NCBI GenBank assembly: GCA_949130485.1
Contig: OX422183.1
Span: 18,631,934 to 18,695,933, forward strand
Direction: 5' to 3'
Length of the DNA: 64,000 nucleotides
Source: Agelas oroides
Lineage: Eukaryota > Porifera > Demospongiae > Agelasida > Agelasidae
Shown: piece by piece, positions 10,799-40,530 of the stretch
Layout of the letters: each line of letters starts with the position of its first letter
Numbering within the stretch: the first letter of the stretch is position 1
Position numbers and translations under genes: made by a program
Notes under the pieces: model-generated
Databases searched by the model: none
What the model was told of the DNA's origin: nothing
What the model saw: only the letters and a program-made list of their open reading frames with translations

Positions 10799-11340
10799 CA
10801 CTACCAGGTAGTGACCAACAATTACCTATACTACCAGGTAGTGACAGTACCAGGTAGTGACCAACAATTACCACTAGCAGGTAGTGATGTTTGTGACTGA
10901 TAGTTACCACTAGCAGGTAGTGATGTTTGTGACTGACAATTACCACTACCAGGTAGTGATGTTTGTGACTGACAATTGCCACTACGAGGTAGTGATGTGT
11001 GTGACTGACAATTACCACTAGCAGGTAGTGATGTGTGTGACTGACAATTACCACTAGCAGGTAGTGATGTGTGTGACTGACAATTACCACTAGCAGGTAG
11101 TGATGTGTGTGACTGACAATTACCGCTAGCAGGTAGTGATGTGTGTGACTGACAATTACCACTACCAGGTAGTGATGTTTGTGACTGACAATTACCACTA
11201 GCAGGTAGTGATGTGTGTGACTGACAATTACCACTACCAGGTAGTGATGTGTGTGACTGACAATTACCACTACCAGGTAGTGATGTGTGTGACTGACAAT
11301 TTCCACAAACTGTCACTATCCAGTAGTGATGTTCACTATT
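10799..11340. repeat. 36-bp minisatellite with a palindromic core (X1 copy)
   Basis: About thirteen units of 36 bp, each holding CACTACCAGGTAGTG or a one-base variant (CACTAGCAGGTAGTG), joined by atgtgtgtgactgacaatta. The first form is a perfect 15-bp inverted repeat around a central A. The array is open in several frames only because 36 is divisible by three, so those frames are not taken as genes. X2 has about ten units at 17734-18125. Confidence 0.9.
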
Positions 11341-11614
11341 TAGTGTTTTCAGAATAATTTTTTTTTGCTAACTGCATGCATAAGGAAACCATGCAGAGAG
11401 GAAGCTTCCCGGACATCTTACAACCATGATCTTGCAGATATAGTAACCACTGAACAGCTTTGAAAGGGGTACACCTGTATGTATCAAAGACCACGCAATA
11501 ACTACAGATATTGTAAACACTGAATATCTGTGAGAGTCACCACAAATAATCTCCCACCTTCTACTGTAAATTTTGAATATTTCCCGAAATTTGCACTTTA
11601 TAGATATATGCATG

Positions 11615-12011
11615 AACAATCAACGAACCACATCTCCCTTATAAAACAGGCCTAGATGTTATGCAAAGTCACCCACTGCGCAGGACGTGTTTCGGCCAAT
11701 ACCAGGCCTCATCAGCTGCGCTGGGGTGACCGGGAGATGGGGACTGCTATCTCATGCACAGAATGCAGTCAGGTGGCTGGCCTTATTCAAAAGTCGGTAG
11801 AGACTCCTCGAAAGCACCGTCTCTTCGTGCAGCTGTTCTTCGTGCAGCTGTCTTTCGTTCGAAGGTCTTACGTAGCGATTGATCGTCACGTGTTATCGAC
11901 GCGTGCGTGCGCGCGCGCGCATACAGAGGCACTGGAGGTACCGGAAGTATTGATAATAAGGCACAAGGCAAACAGTGTAAGGCAAACAGTGCGTGTTTAA
12001 AGGCTGTGTGT
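11615..12011. mobile_element. Ribozyme-bearing insertion, retrozyme- or Penelope-like
   Basis: Alignment of X1 with X2 (18397-18400) shows about 395 bp present only in X1, between gcatg and gcctcagtggg. It is richer in CG than its surroundings (a cgcgcgcgcgc run near 11910) and carries one hammerhead ribozyme on the minus strand. Hammerheads of this minimal type I form are known from Penelope-like retroelements and from small non-autonomous retrozymes. I see no reverse-transcriptase frame, no second ribozyme and no clear target duplication. A loss from X2 rather than a gain in X1 remains possible. Confidence 0.55.
11668..11730 (-). ncRNA. Type I hammerhead self-cleaving ribozyme
   Basis: On the minus strand, stem I strand GTCACCC-CA-GCGCAG (11730-11716) is followed by the core CTGATGA (11715-11709), stem II GGCC, a seven-base loop and GGCC (11708-11694), and then GAAA (11693-11690). 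After CAC comes the cleavage triplet GTC (ending at 11684) and the returning stem I strand CTGCGC-AGT-GGGTGAC (11683-11668). Both halves of stem I pair perfectly around an internal loop, as needed for loop-loop contact with stem II. Helix III is only A-U and C-G with a two-base turn, too small for one molecule, so cleavage may need a dimer, as described for retroelement hammerheads. All conserved core bases are present. Confidence 0.88.
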
Positions 12012-12429
12012 GCCTCAGTGGGTGGCTGCTGCCAGGGTGTAGCGTCGGCTACCTGGAGCCCCTTCAGCTCCACCATGATAAGTTTATATTCACAAGGTAT
12101 ATATACAAGTTGGAAAACCAATGTGCTAGATGGTATTAGTGCTCCCCGACTTGACTCATCTTCTGATCATGCTGGTGCCATACCGATATTCTGCTGGCCT
12201 TGTAACTGGAATAAGCAGTTGAGACAAATAGAGAGAGGGTCGAAAATACGATGATACTCATTTGGCATTATTTTTTGTATTGTTCCACGCCCCTTTCAAT
12301 CAGCTACAATCCTTTACAGCTGCCCATGAGTCTTATTTTCTCCCAACAACTTAAGAGCTAGTCTCAATGACATATACTATAAACCACACCAGCTAGCTGG
12401 CTGGGTTCAAATAGTAATTATATATGTCT

Positions 12430-17733: not shown

Positions 17734-18125
17734 CACTACCAGGTAGTGACCAACAATTACCTATACTACCAGGTAGTGACAGTACCAGGTAGTGACCAAC
17801 AATTACCACTAGCAGGTAGTGATGTTTGTGACTGACAGTTACCACTACCAGGTAGTGACTGACAAATACCACTACCAGGTAGTGATGTTTGTGACTGACA
17901 ATTACCACTAGCAGGTAGTGATGTTTGTGACTGACAATTACCACTACCAGGTAGTGATGTTTGTGACTGACAATTACCACTACCAGGTAGTGATGTGTGT
18001 GACTGACAATTACCACTACCAGGTAGTGATGTTTGTGACTGACAATTACCACTACCAAGTAGTGATGTTTGTGACTGACAATTTCCACAAACTGTCACTA
18101 TCAAGTAGTGATGTTCACTATTTAG
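17734..18125. repeat. 36-bp minisatellite with a palindromic core (X2 copy)
   Basis: About ten units homologous to 10799-11340. In this copy most units carry the perfect palindrome CACTACCAGGTAGTG, and one unit is shortened. Linker variants favour atgtttgtgactgacaat over the atgtgtgtg form common in X1. Confidence 0.9.
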
Positions 18126-36878: not shown

Positions 36879-37236
36879 CTAAGTACAATCACAAGAAATT
36901 GAATGCATGAAAGCACATATATTGTCAATATGTGTACAGCCACATTATAAGGATGAAACCATTATCAGATGATTAAGTCAAACAAGGCAAAAAAAAGTGT
37001 TCTTTACTGTTTCATATGTAAGGGCTGTCCATATGTGGACATTCTGAATGATGTAGGTTACAATTGGGCTGAAGCAGTATATACGTTTTTGTTGACAACT
37101 TGATCTGGCTCTATTCATGTATTGTTGGCTAGACTAAAGTGATATTCACATGCTATAGTGCTAAACACTTGAGAGTATTTAAGCACAAGATTGAAATATT
37201 CATGCCTTGTTGGAAAGTTAAGCAGACAAGGGGCAT

Positions 37237-37765
37237 AACCCAACCATGACAAAAGGAGGTGGGGCAAGGCTTGGAGCTGCATGGATGCCAAACTGCAACT
37301 CGTTTTTTTTTTGGTGTTCTTCAGATTGCATTGAGTAAATTTTGCCGCTCATCCACTTTCGTGTGTACTGAATGCAATTGAAGAACAACAACAAAAAAAA
37401 ATGGGGGAGGGCCTGGGAACGAAGGTAAAGTAAAAATTACTACCATTGTAACAGTATTTACAGTATAACCCAACCATGACAAAAGGAGGTGGGGCAAGGC
37501 TTGGAGCTGCATGGATGCCAAACTGCAACTCGTTTTTTTTTCGTTGTTCTTCAGATTGCATTGAGTAAATTTTGCCACTCATCCACTTTCGTGTGTACTG
37601 AATGCAATTGAAGAACAACAACAAAAAAATGGGGGAGGGCCTGGGAACGAAGGTAAAGTAAAAATGACTACCATTGTAACAGTATTTACAGTATAACCCA
37701 ACCATGACAAAAGGAGGTGGGGCAAGGCTTGGAGCTGCATGGATGCCAAACTGCAACTCATCATG
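37237..37765. repeat. Tandem array of about 229 bp, 2.3 copies
   Basis: Copies start at 37237, 37467 and 37695 with aacccaaccatgacaaaagg. Each complete unit contains the hairpin core of the element at 36293-36446 plus a 90-bp flank, so a transposon copy and its neighbour were amplified together. The frames that repeat in it are artefacts. Confidence 0.9.
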
Positions 37766-39539: not shown

Positions 39540-40530
39540 AAATATACGGAGGGTACAAACTCTCGGTCACATGCGTACAACACTTCACATGGAAAGATGG
39601 TTGTGTATGCAGACGACATTGCTCTGTACCAAATTATTCAGTCTCCTGAGGACTACCTCCTGGTACAACATGATATTAATGCTGTCTCTGAGTGGATTAC
39701 TGCCAACTATCTGGCCTTGAACTATCGAAAATGTTGCCATCTACTCTTCTCACGTAAAAGATCTCCTACCCTTCCAGTTGCTCCACTAGAGGTCAATGGG
39801 AATTTTGTCAAACAAGTTAATGAATACAAGTATCTTGGAGTCATCCTAACCTCAGACATGTCGTGGTCATCTCACATCTCTGCCATCAGCTCTAAAACTA
39901 GAAAACTTATTGGGGTCCTTTATCGAAAGTTCTATCTCTATTCAGAACCACACACCCTCCTACGTTTGTACCAGTCATTGATTCGTCCACACCTTGAATA
40001 TGCTTGTAGTGTTTGGGATCCTCACCTGAAGAAAGACATTGAGAGGCTTGAGGGTGTTCAGAAGTTTGGGTTGAAAGTTTGTCTAAAGCGATGGCGATGT
40101 GGATATGAGGAACTCTTGCAACTCGCCAACCTTCCAACATTAGTCACAAGAAGAAAATGTTTAAAACTCTGCCTGTTCTACAACATGGTTAACAGGCTTG
40201 CTACTTTTCCAAACATTCCCACTGTTTTTAGATCCACTCCCTATGGCAATTCTATTCGGTCTATTAACTCCAGTTCCATGGTACAGCCACGTGCACATTC
40301 AAACTTCTATTCAAATTCATTTTTCCCCTCTTGTACTAGTTTGTGGAATAGTTTACCTTCAGATGTTAGTGCTATTTCTACCTTACCTGTTTTTAAACGT
40401 GCTATTGTAAATTTGTTTTAGTTTTGTCTTTTGTCTTTGTAGGTTATCAGTTTATATTAGCTTACTAGCTACTTCTGATGACCTGATATAACAAATTTGT
40501 TCAGTAAAAAAAAACACAAAAAAAAAACAC
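39540..40530 (+). mobile_element. 5'-truncated non-LTR retrotransposon
   Basis: A single open frame (39597-40421) is followed by about 100 bp of untranslated sequence and A-rich runs, as at the 3' end of a LINE. The 5' part, including most of the reverse transcriptase, is missing. Genomic sequence joins near 39540. It resembles the CR1/jockey group rather than an LTR element. Confidence 0.85.
39597..40421 (+). pseudogene. Reverse transcriptase C-terminal fragment
   Basis: The frame of 274 codons begins at the catalytic YADD box (MVVYADDIALYQII) and continues with the typical thumb region: NEYKYLGVILTSDMSWSSHI, SLIRPHLEYACSVWDPHL and RLEGVQKFGLKVCL. The end is SLWNSLPSDVSAISTLPVFK, as in many LINE ORF2 proteins. 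Upstream palm motifs and the endonuclease are absent, so it cannot work alone, although no stop interrupts the remaining frame. Confidence 0.9.

Follow-up and report, generated by a model that had tools for sequence, protein, structure and literature searches.

The window, by which we mean the whole 64,000-nt stretch of Agelas oroides DNA analysed here, contains a complete and well-formed type I hammerhead ribozyme (HHR) fold on the minus strand at positions 11668–11730, as confirmed by the sequence, folding and a structural descriptor. The DNA around this fold is very likely the dead, 5'-truncated end of a young Naiad-type Penelope-like element (PLE) with about 3.55 kb per unit, which carries the type I HHR in its pseudo-LTR. 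The features are given below in window coordinates.

11610–12013, minus strand: very likely a 5'-truncated PLE fragment, most of one pseudo-LTR plus the tail, without an ORF (by alignment to element copy L009)
11732–11739, minus strand: predicted outer stem, 5' arm CATCTCCC, pairing with 11638–11631 at a probability of at least 0.996
11668–11730, minus strand: type I HHR fold
11716–11730, minus strand: stem I, 5' strand
11709–11715, minus strand: catalytic box CTGATGA
11694–11708, minus strand: stem II, GGCC (11708–11705) and GGCC (11697–11694) with the 7-nt loop TGGTATT
11684–11693, minus strand: GAAA (11693–11690), helix III region CACG (11689–11686), T (11685) and C (11684)
11668–11683, minus strand: stem I, 3' strand; the predicted 5'-OH product starts at 11683
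11610–11667, minus strand: tail, reaching to the common 3' end of the insertions 74 nt past the predicted cut
11631–11638, minus strand: predicted outer stem, 3' arm GGGAGATG, within the tail (by pair probability)

The hammerhead fold

The CUGANGA and GAAA boxes, a UH before the cut, three helices and an open stem I, which characterize type I hammerheads, were all present. Stem I consisted of a core-proximal part of 6 bp (GCGCAG/CTGCGC) and an outer part of 7 bp (GTCACCC/GGGTGAC); the small, asymmetric internal loop between them leaves room for one C-G pair. Helix III consisted of an A-U pair plus one C-G pair over a 2-nt loop. The fold energy was -30.9 kcal/mol (z -3.13), and 0 of 200 shuffles were equally stable. 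A full descriptor requiring the core, a stem II of at least 4 bp, closure of stem III, the UH and a stem I of at least 5 bp gave one match in the window and none in 300 dinucleotide shuffles. The loose pattern CTGATGAN{4,34}GAAA, with 2 matches in the window against 1.39 expected, was at chance level. In its 151-nt context, the stem II pairs of the window HHR had probabilities of 0.93–0.94; stem II was less certain in the L009 copy (0.71–0.72).

The first-pass annotation had described a complete type I hammerhead at this place, with CTGATGA, GAAA, a GGCC/GGCC stem II with a 7-nt loop, a GTC triplet and a two-part stem I. All of these parts could be read in the sequence and were recovered by folding, and the cut position that it predicted, between 11684 and 11683, agrees with ours. 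The match to an Rfam hammerhead model, for which it proposed to search as a check, was seen only below threshold: no family reached its gathering score, and the best match, RF02275 Hammerhead_HH9, scored 21.6 bits against a cut-off of 52, with E-values of 0.0084 for 601 nt and 0.9 for the whole window (24.4 bits on the L009 copy). Core and stem I match this model in register, whereas helix III of the window-family HHR differs from it. Our own model R1 gave 97.6 bits on the window HHR, the window copy being itself one of the 24 rows of R1. The Rfam matches cHP, JPX_2 and mcrA in or around the HHR were taken as chance.

The element family in the genome

The exact 27-nt HHR core was found in 267 copies in the genome (259.3 Mb in 141 contigs), compared with none for the reversed control, and tails with at most one mismatch numbered 1068 and 1137, or about 1100. 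Two copies display the plan of the element. In L009, the ORF region is flanked by a pair of 416-nt direct repeats that match at 99.8% and each contain an HHR, the two HHRs lying 3553 nt apart; L010 comprises 1.64 units, its repeats match at 99.9%, and its HHRs are 3558 nt apart. This pseudo-LTR plan is described for Penelope-like elements in the excerpt of PMC8969392. As in PLEs, the family has pseudo-LTRs that arise from partial tandem units, copies truncated on the 5' side and a common 3' tail. As a separate observation, ten tail copies with identical flanks, spaced about 16–21 kb, occur at C1:1259455-1423687 of G000 (L029–L038), and we read these as one insertion multiplied within a long tandem repeat.

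The window fragment aligned locally to the L009 copy over 404 window nt and was 97.3% identical to it over the BLAST match. It holds one HHR only, and no target-site duplication was seen around it by eye. The earlier assignment of the ribozyme to a retroelement is borne out by the 267 genomic cores and by the HHRs in pseudo-LTRs; as a refinement, the ribozyme does not stand by itself but belongs to a pseudo-LTR fragment of a PLE, without an ORF at this locus. At most, the window copy could act on host transcripts running through it.

The window copy retains the two boxes and every stem. At helix III, most copies seen have ACGCGT, which is self-complementary over 6 nt; in the window copy this is replaced by ACACGT, and the helix III palindrome is hence broken. 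The suggestion in the first-pass annotation that the ribozyme may act as a dimer therefore fits the family, with ACGCGT in most copies seen, better than it fits the window copy, with its ACACGT and single HHR. Among 65 unique HHR regions, which include loci chosen for an exact core (L001–L028) and so give too high an intact share, 52 keep all boxes and 6 have AAAA for GAAA. Mean column identity over 24 copies was 94%. In the same 24 copies, 2 double-change cells were found against 4.0 expected by shuffling; since pair changes were not above the shuffles, covariation gives no sign of selection on the fold. The changes at HHR pairs look like CpG decay.

A protein search gave at least 49 ORF matches (45 of 520 candidates scored). 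Nine of the matches listed span at least residues 2–1012, and 7 of these 9 are stop-free; the near-full-length ORF copies are 99–100% identical, which indicates that the family is young. In all 21 listed ORF matches on contigs C1–C3, an exact HHR core lies 218–723 nt 3' on the same strand, and in L009 the predicted HHR cut falls about 208 nt ahead of the first ATG of the frame. Within the element, the HHR would follow the ORF of one unit and precede the site where reverse transcription (RT) of the next unit starts.

In L010, the frame is open over 1012 aa; in L009, it is interrupted by a single stop. A GIY-YIG endonuclease domain at aa 148–237 (24.7 bits, cut-off 22.6) precedes a reverse transcriptase domain, RVT_1, at aa 652–862, the latter scoring 24.4 bits and thus below its cut-off of 29.6. 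We aligned 38 proteins, the element and 37 homologues picked from 120 listed of 429 found. Cys449 and Cys451, located between the two domains, were invariant in 38 of 38, and domain searches detected GIY-YIG in 37 of these proteins, with RVT_1 detected in 31. The AlphaFold2 model had a mean pLDDT of 81 and a pTM of 0.64. When it was used in a PDB fold search, ranks 1–12 were all telomerase, with E-values of 1e-10 to 2e-8 and low TM-scores by query of 0.24–0.31. Provisionally, we therefore assign a Naiad-type layout to the ORF: a GIY-YIG nuclease at the N-terminus, followed by a CxC linker and a reverse transcriptase of the telomerase-like kind. An endonuclease ahead of the reverse transcriptase together with a CxC linker marks the Naiad and Chlamys elements, and the CxC linker motif is diagnostic for PLEs with an N-terminal endonuclease (EN+).

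Insertion, 5' ends and the end of the element RNA

The copies have one common 3' end, 74 nt past the predicted cut, and 5' ends that vary; nearly all of 84 sampled rows ended within a few nt of this 3' end. At the 5' side, 46 of 60 junctions fell in a CATG/GCAT/ATGC window, compared with a background of 162 of 1100. The 60 junctions are those of 74 copies minus 14 without a 5' end or flank in the fetched stretch, and these 74 comprise every unique copy that carries the exact 3' pattern among the fetched loci, from which 17 further places are absent and in which long copies are somewhat under-represented. Judging from the shared 3' end and the junction motif, RT seems to begin at a set position within the unit, on TGCATG-like targets, and we infer that the end of the tail is this position.

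Relative to the predicted cut, the 5' ends of the 74 copies lay at +35 or more in 8, +10 to +34 in 15, -8 to +9 in 15, -41 to -9 in 9, -100 to -42 in 14 and further in 13. Cleavage of the downstream HHR before RT would leave copies that were begun at the tail with their end at position 0. The 5' ends did not peak significantly at the predicted cut, where the interval -1 to +1 held 3 of the 74 against 1.5 expected (P 0.2), and 46 of the 74 copies start 5' of it, or 43 if ends within 4 nt are set aside. Many template RNAs were hence probably uncut at this place or religated. L009 and L010 extend past a second HHR. Three signals were rejected. A cluster of 5' ends at the cut in the first sample (84 rows, with duplicates) came from a tail pattern that is blind to shorter copies. 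An excess at -8 to +9 (15 against 9.2 expected, P 0.05, with the interval chosen afterwards) and a group of 7 copies at -6 to -8 were not accepted as cleavage footprints, neither being at the cut itself.

The HHR and the tail fold together in the model of the 151-nt RNA, where the outer stem is predicted to close around the HHR. The energy of this fold was -58.5 kcal/mol (z -3.33), and 0 of 200 shuffles were equally stable. In the element RNA, the HHR and the 74-nt tail may make up a single structured end, from which the element protein would begin RT. Cutting of tandem transcripts by the ribozyme would give unit-length RNA, the two ends of which could pair through stem I, making religation possible, and insertion would then proceed mostly from RNA that is uncut, or religated, at the cut point. 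Rather speculatively, a Naiad-type PLE might have acquired or kept a type I HHR of canonical plan and built it into the RNA structure at which RT starts, with one module both setting the RT start and supplying circular or unit-length templates by cutting and religation; ACGCGU dimers, formed only in tandem transcripts, would then act as a sensor of tandem arrangement.

It is also conceivable, though we consider it doubtful, that the HHR of the PLE has lost its cutting activity and persists solely as an RNA structure to which protein binds and at which RT begins. The lack of a significant 5'-end peak at the cut, the 46 of 74 copies that start upstream of it, and the position of the HHR within a larger stable structure adjoining the RT start would all agree with such a relic. 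The excerpt of PMC11167929 on PAc, a Poseidon element of Anolis carolinensis, points both ways. There, HHR mutants leave in vitro insertion unaffected and the main substrate is unprocessed RNA, much as the 5' ends suggest for the window family, yet the PAc HHR cuts in the presence of its protein. The catalytic boxes, moreover, are all intact in L010, which has an intact ORF, and in the 52 of 65 regions of the sample enriched for exact cores, which argues against a relic.

Far less probable is a non-autonomous metazoan retrozyme, that is, small tandems of type I HHRs giving circular RNA of 170–400 nt and mobilized by PLEs. Such an origin would account for the type I fold with its short helix III and for the many short copies without an ORF, and PLEs are proposed as movers of retrozymes in the excerpts of PMC7229834 and PMC7761336. 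A retrozyme unit is non-coding and about 150–450 bp long, whereas the HHRs of L009 and L010 are spaced 3553–3558 nt apart with an ORF between them. Furthermore, 21 of 87 exact cores on C1–C3 adjoin an ORF piece, the remaining ones being mostly short window-like copies as far as sampled, and the aligned short copies are 5' truncations of one sequence with a common 3' end. A chance resemblance to an HHR in unrelated repeat DNA is highly improbable: the bare box pattern is at chance level and the Rfam gathering score was unmet, but the full descriptor occurred in 0 of 300 shuffles, 12 further features of boxes and stems agree across both pseudo-LTRs of L009 and L010, and the sub-threshold hammerhead-model match is in the right register.

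Relatives and known systems

PLEs with an N-terminal endonuclease (EN+; the Naiad clade) reportedly lack canonical HHR motifs. Naiad elements share with the window family an N-terminal GIY-YIG domain, a CxC linker and a C-terminal telomerase-like reverse transcriptase, as well as pseudo-LTRs and 5' truncation, and both are biased to short repeat-like targets, TGCATG in the window family and microsatellites in Naiad. In contrast to Naiad, said to be without a canonical HHR, the window family has one per pseudo-LTR; the HHRs of L010 and of each of the two L009 pseudo-LTRs run against this generalization, which is no definition of the clade. No paper treating Naiad and hammerheads together was found in the literature searched.

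Two collinear relatives, L267 and L268, were 30–31% identical to the element protein over query residues 103–996 and 104–971, respectively. Among six relatives (L267–L272), repeats one unit apart were found in these two only. No HHR was found in any of the six with Rfam at E up to 5, with model R1 or with a looser descriptor; for the four without unit-spaced repeats (L269–L272) this absence says little, and for L267 and L268 it agrees with the lack of canonical HHRs in PLEs with an N-terminal endonuclease that is reported to be stated by Craig et al. 2021. The record titles of all six name bacterial MAGs or mussel symbionts, and the identity to the element protein is 30–55%; judged by identity and record titles, they are probably host or eukaryote contamination. 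None of 23 pattern stretches in viral contigs was related. The pattern CTGATGAGGCC-loop-GGCCGAAAC occurred in at least 120 stretches of viral contigs, which we take to be phage hammerheads.

The excerpts of two reviews describe most hammerheads of PLEs as minimal forms that lack helix III or contacts between loops (PMC7761336, PMC6155905). They are also described as type I, lying in tandem pseudo-LTRs, with a proposed action as dimers (PMC7761336, PMC6155905, PMC7229834); the findings of Cervera & de la Pena 2014 and Lunse et al. 2017 are given here as these excerpts report them. The window-family HHR is likewise type I and located in tandem pseudo-LTRs, whereas it keeps a closing helix III pair and an internal loop in stem I, unlike the minimal PLE hammerheads of these excerpts. 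Its plan more nearly resembles that of the newt and retrozyme hammerheads. The first-pass annotation had called this form, with its near-absent helix III, typical of animal retroelement hammerheads; this calls for caution, the reviewed PLE HHRs being more minimal.

With PAc, as excerpted in PMC11167929, the family has in common a tail signature and an HHR that lies shortly ahead of the internal point where RT starts. RT of PAc starts 111–118 nt into the ORF and its HHR cuts at 26, giving by subtraction 85–92 nt from cut to RT start, compared with 74 nt in the window family. The same excerpt places the PAc endonuclease C-terminally, whereas that of the window family is N-terminal, and has the PAc HHR span the start codon, whereas the predicted window-family cut lies ahead of the ATG. 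PAc prefers ATT sites; in the window family, the CATG at the 3' end is similar to the target.

According to the excerpt of PMC7761336, it is still a mystery what hammerheads do in PLEs. In a young family with seven stop-free near-full-length ORFs among the matches listed, a clearly folded HHR and an RT start 74 nt away, this role would be directly testable. If the reported lack of HHRs in PLEs with an N-terminal endonuclease holds, the association with HHRs is not confined to PLEs with a C-terminal endonuclease, and it was either gained separately or is older than thought.

Other features were observed elsewhere in the window. Two 36-bp tandem arrays at 10802–11306 and 17737–18088, about 6.9 kb apart, share the same 46-bp edge, and a 230-bp unit is present in 2.3 tandem copies with 97% matches at 37235–37759. 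A long hairpin at 2705–2816 matched mir-1294 with 41 bits against a cut-off of 90 and may be a small inverted-repeat transposon. On the plus strand at 39597–40421, a 274-aa frame begins with a sub-threshold match to RVT_1 (23.5 bits against 29.6) and appears to be a piece of another retroelement.
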